Shown in pieces: positions 1 to 46,273 of a DNA stretch of 64,000 bases. The DNA is from Symmachiella dynata (GTDB lineage Bacteria; Planctomycetota; Planctomycetia; Planctomycetales; Planctomycetaceae). The notes beneath the pieces were generated by a model, which saw only the letters and a program-made list of their open reading frames with translations, did not search any database and had not been told where the DNA came from. Both the position numbers and the translations under genes were made by a program. The DNA is taken from NCBI RefSeq assembly GCF_007747995.1, contig NZ_CP036276.1, forward strand, positions 1,727,001 to 1,791,000, in the 5' to 3' direction. Numbering within the stretch: position 1 is the first letter of the stretch; the number at the start of each line of letters is the position of its first letter.

Positions 1-353
1 TCGATCAGTTGCGCATGCGCGGCTGTGCCGCCGGCGGCTTGAGGTTTGCCGTGTTGGTTGCGGGCGAAGTCGCGGATTTTGTTGCGGGTGATCGTCCACA
101 GCCAACCGCGAAAGGTGTCGCCGTCGCGATCGTCGTGGAAACTTTCGATCGCCAATGAAACGGCGCGAAACACCTCTTGCACCACGTCAGCGGAATCTTC
201 AGCGGCCAGGCCTGTGCGGCGGCACCAATGATAGACCAGCGGGCCGTACAATTCCGACAGCCGTGCCCACGCCGCCGGTTCCTGTCGCCGCACGCGCGAG
301 ATCAGACTGGACGACGTTGAGTGCGCGTCTTTCGCCGGAGTCCGTGTCGACAT
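1..353 (-). CDS. ECF-type RNA polymerase sigma factor (N-terminal part, cut by window edge)
   Basis: The minus strand encodes 117 codons that run off the left edge, starting with MSTRTPAKDAHSTSSSLISR. The visible part is sigma region 2: a helix around RRQEPAAWARLSELYGPLVY, then DVVQEVFRAVS, which fits the conserved region 2.2 core-binding helix of ECF factors, then FRGWLWTITRNKIRDF, which fits regions 2.3/2.4 (-10 recognition). The N-terminus resembles the Rhodopirellula/Verrucomicrobium class of small sigma factors. Region 4 lies outside the window, so target and partner cannot be judged. The ATG at 353 is the only in-frame start that keeps the whole region 2. Confidence 0.85.
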   Translation of the reverse strand, partial: MSTRTPAKDAHSTSSSLISRVRRQEPAAWARLSELYGPLVYHWCRRTGLAAEDSADVVQEVFRAVSLAIESFHDDRDGDTFRGWLWTITRNKIRDFARNQHGKPQAAGGTAAHAQLI

Positions 354-24162: not shown

Positions 24163-24711
24163 ATGTCGCACACTCCCACGATCGACCCTGGTGATGACTT
24201 TGCACGATTGCTGGTTCAGCACGATCGAGCGTTGTTCAGGTATATCATGACATTCGTTGCCCGCCATGACGATGCAGAGGAGATTCTGCAGCGGGTTGCG
24301 ATCGTCTTGTGGAGAAAATTCTCGGAGTACGATCCAACGCGTGACTTTCTCCCGTGGGCGTACCGGGTCGCCTACTTTGAGATCCTGAAGTTTCGCACGG
24401 AGGCCGGCCGCAGTCGTCTCATTTTCCGGGAAGATGTTCTCGAAGCATTGGCTGAAACAAGGCATACTCTGAGTCCGGTTCTCGAAGCACAACATCAGGC
24501 ATTAGATGCGTGCCTGGAAAAATTGAACGCGGAATCTGCCGCTCTGCTGCGACGTCGCTACGGCGAGTCGGAGACAGTCGCGGCGTTGGCGACAGAGAAG
24601 GGCACCACAGCCAAGGCTCTGTACCGCAAACTTGATCGACTGCGCGACCTGATCGCCGACTGCGTCGAACGACGAGTTGGCTTCAAGGGAGTGGTGTCGA
24701 ATTGCGAATAG
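24163..24711 (+). CDS. ECF-type sigma factor (Rhodopirellula/Verrucomicrobium family)
   Basis: 182 aa. Region 2 is FARLLVQHDRALFRYIMTFVARHDDAEEILQRVAIVLWRKFSEY and FLPWAYRVAYFEILKFR. Region 4 is LDACLEKLNAESAALLRRRYGESETVAALATEKGTTAKALYRKLDRLRDLI, with the HTH in VAALATEKGTTAKALYRKL. It binds core polymerase and directs it to a dedicated promoter set. The FecR/LamG membrane gene 81 bp downstream is the likely anti-sigma partner. Start at 24163 is chosen by homology; no strong ribosome site is visible. Confidence 0.9.
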   Translation: MSHTPTIDPGDDFARLLVQHDRALFRYIMTFVARHDDAEEILQRVAIVLWRKFSEYDPTRDFLPWAYRVAYFEILKFRTEAGRSRLIFREDVLEALAETRHTLSPVLEAQHQALDACLEKLNAESAALLRRRYGESETVAALATEKGTTAKALYRKLDRLRDLIADCVERRVGFKGVVSNCE

Positions 24712-41723: not shown

Positions 41724-42794
41724 TCATTTGTCCAGCAACCGGGCGACCTCGCGGCCGAGCCTGCGGCCGCGACAGTTCAAGGATGCAACATTGCCCTCTT
41801 TGTCCAACAGAAGGAACGTTGGATATCTGCTGATACCGTATCGATCACCCATGGTGTTTCGATTCCCGGGAAAATTGTCAGCCACCACAGTCCAGGGAAT
41901 TGGTTGTTTTTGCAGAAACGATTTGAGTTCCTGCATGTTGTCGTCGACGCTGATGGCGATCACGTCAAAGCCATCGTCGTGGTATTTTTTGTAATTCTCC
42001 ATAATATTGGGTATCTCCTCACGGCAAGGACCGCACCAGGTGGCCCAGAAGTCGACCAGCACGACACGCCCTTCGAAGTTCGCCATGTTGAGTGGAGTGC
42101 CGTTGGTCGTCATGCCTGCCAGTTCCAAGGGCTTGCCCAACAGTGCCTCCAACGGGTTGCCGCCATCCCGCGAGACCGCTTCGACTTCAAAATTGATTGA
42201 TTTCTCTCCGTCTGGGTAGGTGGCGCTGATCGCGAACACTTGCCATTTTTCCGTGAGGTAACGCAGGTGCAATTTCGTTTTATGGTTCCGGCCGCCGGCC
42301 TGGACACGGACGGGGATGGCTGCGACGGAGCCTTCGAGTTCCACCTTGCCCGTCCTGATCGATCGAGCCCCCGGTGCTGGCGTGGGCAAATGTGTCAGTG
42401 GCGAATTCTTGCCTTGAGCCACCTTTTTCGCTTTTTCCGTGAGTAGCTCTCGGGCGACTTGCCTCTCGGTATTGCGCAGGTCGCTGAAGAACTCGTCAGC
42501 GGTTTTGGCGATTTCTTTGGCCGCCGCTTTCCGGTCAATTTTGGGAGCTTTGGCTTGCTGTTCTTCGATAAACGCCCGGTCCGCATCGCTTAATCGTGAC
42601 AACGGAACCTTAATCTGCTTGCCGTCCTTGCGGCGCAACACTGCATTGGCCCCTTGGACGGAGACAAACTCTGCTGTGATATTGAACTTGCCATTGCTTC
42701 CCGTCCACTCACGTTCGGCGGCCAAAGTCACGCCCGAGAGCGCGGCGAGAAGGATCGCGAATACCGGCCAACGGCGATGTGAATTCGTGCGCAT
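41724..42794 (-). CDS. SHD1-domain / thioredoxin (TlpA-type) fusion, secreted
   Basis: 356 aa. Signal peptide (WPVFAILLAALSGVTLAA), then REWTGSNGKFNITAEFVSVQ and LRRKDGKQIKVPLSRLSDADRAFIEEQ, the SLA1-homology domain SHD1 found mostly in planctomycete surface proteins. A middle region follows, then a thioredoxin domain with LVDFWATWCGPCREEIPN near residue 250 and cis-Pro in ISRYPTFLLLDKEG. In yeast Sla1, SHD1 binds NPFxD peptides; the bacterial role is unknown. It probably reduces disulfides outside the cytoplasm. Confidence 0.9.
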   Translation of the reverse strand: MRTNSHRRWPVFAILLAALSGVTLAAEREWTGSNGKFNITAEFVSVQGANAVLRRKDGKQIKVPLSRLSDADRAFIEEQQAKAPKIDRKAAAKEIAKTADEFFSDLRNTERQVARELLTEKAKKVAQGKNSPLTHLPTPAPGARSIRTGKVELEGSVAAIPVRVQAGGRNHKTKLHLRYLTEKWQVFAISATYPDGEKSINFEVEAVSRDGGNPLEALLGKPLELAGMTTNGTPLNMANFEGRVVLVDFWATWCGPCREEIPNIMENYKKYHDDGFDVIAISVDDNMQELKSFLQKQPIPWTVVADNFPGNRNTMGDRYGISRYPTFLLLDKEGNVASLNCRGRRLGREVARLLDK

Positions 42795-42944: not shown

Positions 42945-44468
42945 TTATCGTAGATCCTGTAGTGCACGCGCTAACGCAGCGGCGGATGCGTAACGATCGG
43001 CTGGTGATTTTTGGAGGCAACGCAAACAGATCGCGCGCAGGGTAGCGTCGGTCGTGATGGGAAATTGGTCATGCAATTCATGCGGTCGCGTGCGTACGAT
43101 CTGAGCGAGAATATCGGCTACGCGCTTTCCGTTCGCCGGTGGCGCGCCGGTGAGCAGGTGAAACAACACGGCGCCTAGACCATAGACGTCGGTGCGCGGA
43201 CTGATATTACCCCAGTAAGAATCGATTTGCTCCGGCGCCATATATGCCGCCGTTCCCGCCATGCCACGCAAATTGACCGCCTCGGTGTGCAGTGTGCGAG
43301 CAAAACCGAAGTCGACGACGCGTATACAGCCGTCGGGCGCTAACAATAGGTTGCTGGGCTTTAAGTCGCAATGAATCACGCCGTGTTGGTGTGCGTGATC
43401 AATGGCCAGCGCCGCTTGGGCAATCCAACGTGTTGCATCAAGAGATTGCGGTCGTGCGGCGGAGGTGACCGTCTCCAAATTCGGGCCGTCGACCAGATCC
43501 ATGACAAAAAAGAATCTACCGTGCGGCGTGCGCCCCAATCCTTGAGTGGCGACAATACCAGTGTGCTCTAACCCAGCGACTATGCGGGCCTCTGCGATGA
43601 ACCGCTCGACGATGGACGGAGTCTGGACGAATTGCTTTTTCAGATATTTGACGGCCACGGTCGCTGCCGTCGGTTGGTGTACCGCCCGATAAACCTTGCC
43701 GACGCCGCCGCTGCCCAATAACCGTTGCAACAGATAATCGCCATAGAGCAACGGAGCGTCCACATCGCCGCAGGGTTTTGCGTTCTCATCTCGTAGCGTT
43801 TGCTGCGCGGGTTCATTTGAAAGGGGAGCCTTTTGTAATTCGTGGTCCACAGTGTGGAGTCTACGGGCGGGAGGTTCCGCAGTTTCGTCGTCGAACTCAC
43901 GTTGTCGCCGTGTCATTCGTTCGCGGGCCTGGGTGAGCATGCGGCGGACGGTGCGTTCGGAGTGCTCGATCTCAGCGGCAATCTCGGCTAATGTTTCGCC
44001 TTGCAGACGCAATTCGAGAACACGTCGCCCCAGCGGCGGCAATTCGGCAAACAGCCATTCCATCTCATCGGCCAGCGCTACGGCTTCATCGGGCGTCGGT
44101 TCGCGAACGGTGAACTGCGTATCGATTGCATTCGCATCGCCCGGCGATTGTTCACGATCGACTGAGCGCATCTCAGCAGTGTGGTGGGCAGCGGAGCGGT
44201 AGAGCTTGTGCAGCGTGATTCGCACGAGCAACCGCCACAAGTCGCCGCTACGTTCCAGCGAAAACCGGCCTTGCCCGGCAGCAACAAAAAAACTGCGGTA
44301 GGCCGAGTGCACAACATCCTCGGGATCAATCCGGCTCGACAGCTTGGGCGACAACCGCGTCCGCGCCAAGCGGGTCAGACGCTCGACGTACCGCGCAAAC
44401 AATTCGTCAGCGGCGCGCTGGTCGCCGTTTTCGAATTGCTCCAAGAGTTCGGCAGATGTCAGATCCAT
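42945..44468 (-). CDS. ECF sigma factor fused to Ser/Thr protein kinase
   Basis: 507 aa in one open frame. Residues 1-190 are a full ECF sigma factor: region 2 includes DPEDVVHSAYRSFF (48-61) and DLWRLLVRITLHKLYR; region 4 includes LGRRVLELRLQGETLAEIAAEIEHSERTVRRMLTQAR (146-181), an HTH. Residues about 191-241 are a polar linker. Residues 242-507 are a protein kinase: G-loop LGSGGVGKVY (251-260), K274 in VAVK, E293 in the alpha-C helix, HCDLKPSN (366-373), DFG (386-388) and APE (411-413). No transmembrane or extra sensor domain is present. A kinase acting on its own sigma half is inferred. The catalytic loop is HCD rather than HRD. Confidence 0.93.
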   Translation of the reverse strand: MDLTSAELLEQFENGDQRAADELFARYVERLTRLARTRLSPKLSSRIDPEDVVHSAYRSFFVAAGQGRFSLERSGDLWRLLVRITLHKLYRSAAHHTAEMRSVDREQSPGDANAIDTQFTVREPTPDEAVALADEMEWLFAELPPLGRRVLELRLQGETLAEIAAEIEHSERTVRRMLTQARERMTRRQREFDDETAEPPARRLHTVDHELQKAPLSNEPAQQTLRDENAKPCGDVDAPLLYGDYLLQRLLGSGGVGKVYRAVHQPTAATVAVKYLKKQFVQTPSIVERFIAEARIVAGLEHTGIVATQGLGRTPHGRFFFVMDLVDGPNLETVTSAARPQSLDATRWIAQAALAIDHAHQHGVIHCDLKPSNLLLAPDGCIRVVDFGFARTLHTEAVNLRGMAGTAAYMAPEQIDSYWGNISPRTDVYGLGAVLFHLLTGAPPANGKRVADILAQIVRTRPHELHDQFPITTDATLRAICLRCLQKSPADRYASAAALARALQDLR

Positions 44469-44649
44469 AGATTGATCGGGCCTCGGTAAGGAAAGACCGT
44501 CGCGATGACAGCCACGTTCGCTGAATTCTACCCGGTTTTTGAGAAAACGGAAAATTTCAGATTTTACGTGTCCGGTTTCGCGGCGGCATCTGCATTCGCA
44601 GTTGTACGAAACCCATATTGATCTGTAGTGGTCCGTCTATCCTAAAATG

Positions 44650-45266
44650 TCAGGTATGTGGGTAAAGGTGTTGCAGTTTAATTCTTGCTGCTCGTGTTTT
44701 GAAACGCCAGCGTGCTGGTGTGGCGATTCGGTTGCGTCTTCGCTGCCAAGCGTCGATCTCTGCCGTCATCTGTTTTGCGCTGTCGAAGCGACGGCCGATG
44801 CATTGACGCGTCAAGACGCTCAGCTCCATCTCGGCCATGTTCAGCCAACTGCCATTGACCGGCGTGTGCACGATTCGCAAACGACGCGCCAGGCGATGCG
44901 CTCGCTCTGCATCGAAGGCACAGTACAGACTTGCAATGTCGTGCGTGTTCAGATTGTCGCACACCAGCGTGACGCGCTGGGCATGGGGATAATCCTCTTC
45001 CAACAGCTGCGCGATTTCTTCGCCCCAGTCGATGCGTGTCCGGCTCGCACGGCTGCTGACGCGTCGCCAACCGGCCAGAGGATTGTAAAACATAAACAAG
45101 GCGCGCACCCCTTGACGCTGGTAATGATGATCTTCCCGTCGCACGCAGCCGGGGCTCATCGGCAAAGCCGGATTGACATCGCTGACGATTTGCTTGGATG
45201 CTTCATCCATGCAAATCAACGGATGCGTTTCGTTGTACGTTTCGCAGTAGACGTCAAGAACTTTTT
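44650..45266 (-). CDS. IS630-family transposase, DDE catalytic part (second frame)
   Basis: This frame is read after a probable -1 shift. It contains the DDE triad blocks ICMDEASKQIV, VTLVCDNLNTHDIAS and VHTPVNGSWLNMAEMELSVL, then the C-terminal QCIGRRFDSAKQM. The stop lies inside the left inverted end. The frame is open to 45630, but upstream of the slip site its translation does not resemble a transposase. Confidence 0.85.
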
Positions 45267-45794
45267 CCAGATGGGCCACGAATCGCGGGCGGTCCCGTTC
45301 TGGGATACAAAAGCGTTTACTTTGCCAGGGCTTGAGGCGATTTTTTTCAGACAACGGCGCACGGTCTCTGGGCAGACGGAAGTGACAACCTGCAACCGCC
45401 CCAATTCGTCTGCCAGCAATTTCAAAGTCCAACGCTGGTGTCCTTCCGGCGGATCGCTGCAACACAGCGTGATCAATTTGGCTTCTGCGGCGCCGTCCAG
45501 CTTCGGGGACACCGGCGGTGTGGTCCGCTGCTTGCGTTTCAAGGTTGGCAGCAAACCATCTTCGACAAATTTCTGCCGTACACGTCCTACTTGTTTTTCG
45601 GACAAGCCGACCGTCTGGGCGATATACCAATCTGGATTCCGGTCTTCTCCGCGTCGATCTTCATCAGCCATCAACAAGATCCGCGCACGCCGCAATTGGG
45701 CAGCGGGTACAGATCCACTACGAACTAAACGCTCCATTTCGCGACGTTCGGTCTCACTTAAACAAACTTCCCGTTTCCGATTCGAAGCTGGCAT
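45216..45794 (-). CDS. IS630-family transposase, DNA-binding N-terminal part (first frame)
   Basis: 192 aa. The N-terminal HTH region includes IAQTVGLSEKQVGRVRQKFVEDGLLPTL and the second HTH TLKLLADELGRLQVVTSVCPETVRRCLKK. Overlap with the catalytic frame includes the slippery run GGAAAAAG (45261-45268), where a -1 shift would join WKK to EKVLDVYCE. Such programmed frameshifting is common in this IS family. Confidence 0.85.
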   Translation of the reverse strand: MPASNRKREVCLSETERREMERLVRSGSVPAAQLRRARILLMADEDRRGEDRNPDWYIAQTVGLSEKQVGRVRQKFVEDGLLPTLKRKQRTTPPVSPKLDGAAEAKLITLCCSDPPEGHQRWTLKLLADELGRLQVVTSVCPETVRRCLKKIASSPGKVNAFVSQNGTARDSWPIWKKFLTSTAKRTTKRIR

Positions 45795-45881
45795 CCTTGC
45801 CTCCTAGAGTTCAGTATGAAATTCAAAGTCAACGAATGACACTTATAGCAGATAATGGACATTTTAGAATAGACGGACCAG

Positions 45882-45953
45882 TAGGTCATGCTGTGCATGA
45901 CGTTTCTCGAAATGGCGTCAACAATCTTGCTTCGTCATGCACAGCATGACCTA
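45882..45953. repeat. REP-like palindromic repeat, copy 1 (IS630 target)
   Basis: Two perfect 21-bp inverted arms, TA plus GGTCATGCTGTGCATGACG at 45882-45902 and its complement at 45933-45953. Each arm is itself a hairpin (GTCATGC-TGT-GCATGAC). A second copy is at 48579-48655. Confidence 0.8.
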
Positions 45954-45985
45954 CGATTCGAAATCCCAACCGGAGAACTCAGAGC

Positions 45986-46273
45986 ATGACTTTCGTCGTC
46001 ACCGAGCCTTGTTTTGGCTGCAAATACACCGATTGCATTGTCGTCTGCCCAGCGGAGTGCTTCCATGAAGGGGAGCAAATGCTGTACATCGATCCAGACG
46101 ATTGCCTCGATTGCGATGCTTGTCGCCCGGAATGTCCGGTCGATGCGATTTTCTATGAAGATGATGTCCCGCCGCAGTGGGCGGAGTATATTGAGCTGAA
46201 CGCCGAAATGGTTGCGAAGTGCCCGTCGATCACAGAGCGCAAAACGCCGCTGGCGGATGGAGGAGACAACTGA
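45986..46273 (+). CDS. fdxA: 7Fe ferredoxin (FdxA type)
   Basis: 95 aa. Cysteines 9, 12, 17, 21, 25 and 40, 43, 46, 50 follow CFGCKYTDCIVVCPAECF and CLDCDACRPECPVDAI, matching Azotobacter ferredoxin I, which holds one [3Fe-4S] and one [4Fe-4S] cluster. It is a small soluble electron carrier. GGAG about ten bases upstream supports the start. It lies about 100 bp upstream of bioA; a direct link between the two is not shown. Confidence 0.92.
   Translation: MTFVVTEPCFGCKYTDCIVVCPAECFHEGEQMLYIDPDDCLDCDACRPECPVDAIFYEDDVPPQWAEYIELNAEMVAKCPSITERKTPLADGGDN

Follow-up and report, generated by a model that had tools for sequence, protein, structure and literature searches.

A single gene on the minus strand of the 64,000-nucleotide stretch of DNA analysed here (the window) encodes an ECF sigma factor joined to a Hanks-type Ser/Thr kinase, and we propose that its product is probably a one-component ECF sigma factor that is gated by its own kinase and serves chiefly a second ferredoxin gene, fdxA, lying divergently to it. 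RNA polymerase would be brought by the sigma half to the sequence TGTCCG-N16-TGCATT between the two genes, with the tethered kinase deciding whether the sigma half can act at this promoter. The divergent ferredoxin gene, with its promoter-like element, supplies the likely output of the fused sigma-kinase. The preliminary description of this locus had correctly recognised a single soluble chain with a complete kinase but had overlooked that the gene lies on the minus strand, that the fusion is recurrent, that an N-terminal kinase module is absent, and that a divergent ferredoxin gene with a promoter-like element adjoins it. ECFs under the control of a kinase, and ECFs that carry a C-terminal control domain, are kinds already known from the parts of the literature available to us; what is new here is the divergent FdxA-type ferredoxin partner and the shared promoter-like element of the sigma-kinase family.

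An ECF sigma factor and a kinase in one chain

The fused gene occupies positions 42945-44468 of the window on the minus strand (507 residues plus the stop codon), where the frame opens with ATG and has no internal stop; frame 1 of the plus strand has many stops across the same interval. That one 507-codon chain carries an ECF sigma factor, then a linker, then a complete kinase, as had been described, is borne out by the open reading frame, by Pfam, and by an AlphaFold model. The sigma part (residues 1-195; 43884-44468, minus strand) is matched by the Sigma70_ECF profile at residues 6-189 (PF07638; E = 1.5e-21, 77.6 bits against a cut-off of 21.1) and by Sigma70_r4_2 at residues 140-185, scores 47.7 bits with TIGR02937 (cut-off 42.9), is related to E. 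coli sigma-E in a phmmer comparison (E = 0.0014), and is helical in the model, while the Pfam profile Sigma70_r3 reaches only E = 0.31, under its cut-off. With regions 2 and 4 present and regions 1 and 3 absent, the sigma half is an ECF (group 4 sigma-70) factor. It is followed by a flexible linker of ∼45 residues (196-240; 43749-43883, minus strand) and by the kinase part (residues 241-507; 42948-43748, minus strand), in which the Pkinase profile covers residues 247-499 (PF00069; E = 1.4e-46, 159.5 bits). The domain is complete and has all catalytic residues, and the kinase half thus belongs to the Hanks type. Its best Foldseek match is PknB (1o6y; E = 4.9e-21) and it matches PknA in phmmer (E = 4.2e-41); it resembles PknA/PknB-type kinases in fold and catalytic residues but differs from them in having no membrane part, in being non-RD, and in being fused to a sigma factor.

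The AlphaFold model, computed from an alignment of 58 fused chains that includes the window chain, has a mean pLDDT of 86, with sigma2 (helices up to ∼residue 100), sigma4 (residues 126-195), and the kinase (from ∼residue 241) all folded; confidence is low at residues 105-121 and 198-229, with pLDDT below 50 throughout the latter segment. Because the pTM is 0.60, an interface between sigma factor and kinase cannot be claimed. As the preliminary description also held, the chain has neither a membrane helix nor a sensor domain: the highest 19-residue Kyte-Doolittle mean is 0.99, which suggests no membrane helix, and Pfam recognises no sensor domain. We considered an iron-sulphur or cysteine (redox) sensor within the chain and dropped it, since no conserved set of cysteines was found and the best cysteine column is kept in only 52 of 73 rows.

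All 64 fused chains compared share the five catalytic residues Lys274, Glu293, Asp368, Asn373, and Asp386 without exception, and the kinase half appears to be under selection. In place of HRD the window kinase has HCD, and an initial alignment of 15 chains shows H[ACGS]D; the kinase is of the non-RD type. The missing HRD arginine would fit a reading in which the kinase half is mainly a folded inhibitory or nucleotide-sensing cap, similar to an anti-sigma factor, with phosphotransfer secondary, and C-terminal extensions do act as switches in other ECF groups, according to the available parts of two papers (PMC8103513, PMC8999054); a mere cap would have no need of the invariant catalytic residues, and we regard this reading as improbable. 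A tethered kinase that controls the sigma half as a kinase is, judging from the conservation pattern, the reading we favour, and we consider it fairly probable.

Two further features of the surroundings may be mentioned. On the minus strand as well, the fused gene is followed after 150 bp by a gene for a protein with SHD1 and thioredoxin/TlpA-like parts (41724-42794), and the two are possibly co-transcribed. The window also contains two more ECF sigma factor matches to TIGR02937, at 24196-24654 (plus strand) and at the left edge (1-272, minus strand).

Recurrence of the fusion and the kinase module of split relatives

The survey of the fused architecture across planctomycetes that the preliminary description had called for covered 99 relatives first and then, by profile search followed by frame-by-frame checks, 397 genomes of the class; an uninterrupted fused gene is present in at least 64 of these 397 sampled genomes, a lower bound drawn from among the matches listed. 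Counted as genes over all searches, the uninterrupted fused frames number 68, the window gene among them: 64 from the main round of checks and four added later. Some frames are shortened at the sigma end (by ∼36 profile positions in G096 and by about 20 in G308 and G100), and the linker measured between profile envelopes ranges from 12 to 61 residues in 64 chains, with a median of 23. Beyond the class, no uninterrupted full-length fused frame was found among the matches listed for a sample of 294 genomes of the phylum, in which one match (G533) spans both halves with two stops.

In the closest homologue found, from the same genus (G002), sigma factor and kinase are encoded by two overlapping genes, 67% and 61% identical, respectively, to the two halves of the fused chain, and two other homologues, G025 (L119) and G084 (L342), each contain one in-frame TAG; these last may be pseudogenes, sequencing errors, or young fissions. 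Both observations could be taken to mean that the window frame itself is an artefact, i.e., two genes joined by a sequencing error or a pseudogene. A hidden stop of this kind, which had been raised as a possible objection, is made implausible by the 67 further uninterrupted fused homologues with their conserved catalytic residues, which already refute the artefact and leave it practically no chance of being correct; the companion objection, that the halves might be separate genes in all relatives, does not hold either, though they are separate in the nearest one found.

We placed fused and split genes on a tree of joined sigma and kinase alignments (81 rows). The window protein is the sister of the split G002 pair (SH-aLRT 100), the fused G074 and G156 are nested within split genes, and, counting just the starred branches, the labels fused and split must have changed at least four times. 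A topology with all fused rows in one clade is rejected (AU test, p = 4.5e-56; p = 0.006 when G074 and G156 are left out; these values are rough, as they come from quick trees), and fusion therefore recurred.

The split kinases (L188, L232-L239) carry an additional N-terminal module of ∼130 residues that is homologous among them and also to kinases of more distant ECF pairs. The module is predicted to be all-helical (residues 2-145 of the G002 kinase) and, in the two examples tested, has no Pfam match. An HMM of the module matches nine of nine split kinases (E = 1e-34 to 7e-52, eight of these nine having been used to build it) as well as the split kinases found later in G348 and G404 (E = 2e-14 and 6.5e-19). 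The module is missing from the fused chains examined: the best value across 65 fused frames is E = 0.059, and four more gave nothing at 0.01. A remnant of the module in the linker of the window chain was also considered and rejected, there being no significant local alignment to any of nine modules (72 of 500 shuffles reached the best case). Across this genome, module-bearing kinases have an ECF gene upstream in 5 of 9 cases, compared with 8 of 51 for the other kinase matches (p = 0.018; the fused gene is itself one of the 8, and a few genes account for two each of the 60 kinase matches). Kinases of the module type are found at G000:C1:4080886, 4610719, 4133067, 5903889, and 6631070.

Since fission could not recreate a homologous module, the simpler direction would be from split to fused, with loss of the module. 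In the split relatives the ∼130-residue helical module on the kinase may serve docking or regulation, and its absence from fused chains would follow if, as we propose, physical fusion makes docking unnecessary; a docking role remains a tentative suggestion, somewhat short of an even chance. Repeated fusion together with the absence of the same kinase module provides a natural experiment on what the module does.

These data also bear on whether the kinase acts on its own chain. The kinase half could instead work in trans, on the sigma halves of sister chains or on other proteins, with the fusion merely fixing stoichiometry and expression and the sigma half still serving as the fdxA sigma factor. 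The disordered interdomain linker, whose length varies widely among the 64 chains, would permit this, and the split relatives do use separate chains, made from overlapping genes (the kinase ATG precedes the sigma stop in eight of nine pairs and overlaps that stop in the remaining one). Recurrent fusion and absence of the module in the fused chains examined nevertheless fit a tethered substrate better than mere co-expression, and we rate action in trans as rather unlikely.

The divergent ferredoxin gene and its promoter-like element

Upstream of the fused gene and on the opposite strand lies a gene for a 95-residue FdxA-type ferredoxin (45986-46273, plus strand); FdxA ferredoxins are of the seven-iron type, after the pattern of Azotobacter FdI. 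Its best NCBIfam match is an FdxA model (FdxA_Protbact; E = 2.2e-35), although its score of 121.1 bits falls below the cut-off of 135, and all 51 linked ferredoxins compared retain eight cysteines. A divergent FdxA-type gene is found in 78 of 81 loci of the sigma-kinase family, whether fused or split, as against 0 of 87 other ECF loci (counted within the DNA fetched for these controls; part of the orientations at family loci were read by eye). The three family loci in which no ferredoxin was seen are G385 and G349, where enough upstream DNA is present, and G206, which lies at a contig edge. In the first set of loci, 51 of 53 have the divergent ferredoxin; measured from where the sigma profile match begins, the gap is 104-333 bp in all of them but the window, where it is 1511 bp.

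The linked gene is not the only fdxA of its genomes. Two or more FdxA genes are present in 16 of 16 family-positive genomes but in only 6 of 43 others among 59 genomes (p = 7e-10; G081 is counted here as positive, the figures otherwise being 15 of 15 and 7 of 44, with copy numbers read by eye at E < 1e-20), and the linked fdxA is therefore an additional copy. It resembles FdxA ferredoxins in its best NCBIfam match and its eight cysteines and differs from them in being an extra copy tied to a sigma-kinase gene, with a score under the cut-off.

A candidate promoter directed toward the ferredoxin gene, TGTCCG-N16-TGCATT, is located at 44569-44596 (plus strand) and agrees with the consensus at 12 of 12 positions; similar elements precede the linked ferredoxin gene in relatives. 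With the spacing fixed at 16, the element scores at least 10 of 12 in 25 of 77 upstream regions of linked fdxA genes, a score reached by none of 19 unlinked fdxA copies, by none of the 77 regions read on the reverse strand, and by 0.6% of base shuffles; the consensus was drawn from the same upstream set, so the argument is carried by these controls, by the fixed spacing, and by the distance to the start codon, which is 39-59 nt in 21 of the 25 regions scoring at least 10. In 34 of the 77 the element is weak or unrecognisable (score 8 or less). In ten genomes the extended form TGTCCGG-N15-TGCATTC is matched exactly at five places, all of them in this intergenic region and one of them in the present genome (a single contig of 7.77 Mb). 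When one mismatch is allowed, the locus is found in 9 of 10 genomes (all but G043), together with 31 other places as against 9 matches for a backwards control; other targets beyond fdxA are possible. We also considered whether the sigma factor activates its own gene through this promoter read in reverse, and set the idea aside, none of the 77 regions scoring 10 or more in that orientation.

From its form and position we infer that the element is likely the one with which the sigma half pairs. It could alternatively serve another regulator, with the ferredoxin feeding a redox signal to the kinase and the back-to-back layout reflecting shared physiology. The eight cysteines kept in every linked ferredoxin would suit such a role, as would the upstream regions in which the promoter cannot be recognised, but the constant spacing and the narrow range of distances to the fdxA start form an ECF-like layout that the 19 unlinked copies do not have, and the ferredoxin is unlikely to be the signal rather than the output.

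The unusual width of the intergenic region in the window coincides with an IS630-family element at 44626-45883, between the promoter and the ferredoxin gene, with transposase frames (NF033545) on the minus strand and inverted ends at 44626-44660 and 45849-45883. The insertion point lies ∼30 nt beyond the -10 element. The genome contains three identical copies of this IS630 element, the window copy and two at other places, and given their identity the window copy probably arrived recently. Output of fdxA in this genome is probably weakened or lost through this copy. Just ahead of the ferredoxin gene, at 45881-45954, there is also a perfect inverted repeat of 22 nt (GTAGGTCATGCTGTGCATGACG) around a 30-nt loop, which may be a small mobile or terminator-like element.

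Candidate phosphosites and comparison with known kinase-linked ECFs

In canonical ECFs, the motif DxxDxxQE forms a polar core-binding surface of region 2.2, according to the part of the source available (PMC13147305). Region 2.2 of the window sigma half reads DPEDVVHSAYRSFF, and within it Ser55 (codon at 44304-44306, minus strand; DPEDVVHS) takes the position of the Glu of the canonical motif, where it aligns with the E of DVVQE in sigma-E. All 64 fused and all 9 split chains have Ser at position 55; at position 59, Ser is present in 63 of the 64 fused chains and again in all 9 split ones. The acids of DxxD are mostly kept in the fused chains (D48 in 56 of 64, E/D50 in 63 of 64, and D/E51 in 61 of 64), and the unphosphorylated sigma half may, given these acids, already bind core.

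A phospho-switch in cis is plausible on this pattern of conservation. In response to a cytoplasmic cue, the kinase would phosphorylate the sigma half of its own chain at Ser55 and/or Ser59 in region 2.2, and a phosphate on Ser55 would give the core-binding surface of DxxDxxQE its negative charge back; cis phosphorylation at these two residues is a candidate to which we would give somewhat less than an even chance. A fuller account, in which several lineages independently fused an ECF to its overlapping kinase and lost the module, the kinase came to charge its own invariant Ser, and the protein was dedicated to the promoter of a second ferredoxin, is possible but doubtful as a whole. With its target promoter predicted and two phosphosites proposed, a soluble phospho-sigma factor of one chain would lend itself to a single-tube test together with core RNA polymerase.

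We also asked whether Ser at position 55 predicts a kinase in other planctomycete ECFs. A same-strand downstream kinase accompanies 15 of 24 ECFs with Ser at this position, 10 of 13 of an xxTA type, and 8 of 20 of the rest (read by eye, leaving out ∼5 loci per set with no usable motif and loci of the present genome under the profile cut-off). As a general marker of kinase-linked ECFs, Ser55 is therefore weak (15 of 24 versus 8 of 20), and it is a candidate, not a proof. Ser/Thr residues of the segment between sigma2 and sigma4 are poorly conserved (S/T in 36 of 64 chains at position 102 and in 41 of 64 at position 125); further phosphosites there, as in EcfK, are possible by analogy.

The best comparison is with the ECF43 pairs EcfP-PknT of Vibrio parahaemolyticus and EcfK-PknS of Xanthomonas citri, in which, as the accessible parts of two papers describe, an ECF stands under a Hanks-type kinase and the phosphosite in region 2.2 lies beside core-binding residues (PMC13147305, PMC8999054). 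EcfP is described there as having no acidic DAED motif (PMC8999054), whereas EcfK keeps one acid and has more working phosphosites between sigma2 and sigma4 (PMC13147305). PknS is described as a transmembrane kinase. The window protein is like these pairs in combining an ECF sigma factor with a Hanks-type kinase and in having a region 2.2 site, which in the fused chain is a candidate only. It differs in being one soluble chain rather than separate proteins, in keeping most of DxxD where ECF43 has a phospho-Thr motif for DAED, in placing Ser at the Glu of QE, and in its ferredoxin neighbour. The ECF43 consensus QTTA, with Thr replacing DAED, is not found (the window protein reads DPED), nor is the kinase encoded by a separate neighbouring gene, and the mostly kept DxxD rules out an unchanged EcfP-type restoration of charge at DAED.

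Other kinase-linked ECFs offer partial parallels. In the sections available, the planctomycete groups ECF59, ECF61, ECF62, and ECF217 (named after the 2021 classification) are tabulated as regulated by phosphorylation with a Ser/Thr kinase (PMC8999054), and the mode of action of kinase-linked groups other than ECF43 is called open (PMC8999054). Compared by description alone, these groups have the kinase nearby, according to what is available of those descriptions, whereas here it is fused; an ECF encoded with a Ser/Thr kinase is what we find in this family too, fused in the window and in overlapping genes in nine of nine split pairs. SigH of M. tuberculosis is phosphorylated by PknB, these being separate proteins as in the ECF43 pairs, as reported in the part of the paper seen (PMC13147305). 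One-component ECFs with a C-terminal control domain, such as ECF41 (SnoaL_2), ECF42, ECF57 (WD40), and CorE, are likewise described in the parts available (PMC8103513, PMC8999054); they share with the window protein a C-terminal control extension, which here is a complete and conserved protein kinase. Neither a fused ECF-kinase nor an adjoining ferredoxin is described in those parts of the work examined, and a prior description is possible, the main ECF classification papers having lain outside the search.

A second type of planctomycete ECF, often linked to a kinase, reads xxTAxx[HN]E in region 2.2 (L168, L172, L173, L240-L243, L246, L249, L252, L257). In this type a Thr-bearing motif replaces the DxxD acids, as in ECF43, and the Glu is kept, a mirror image of the type in which Ser stands in for Glu.
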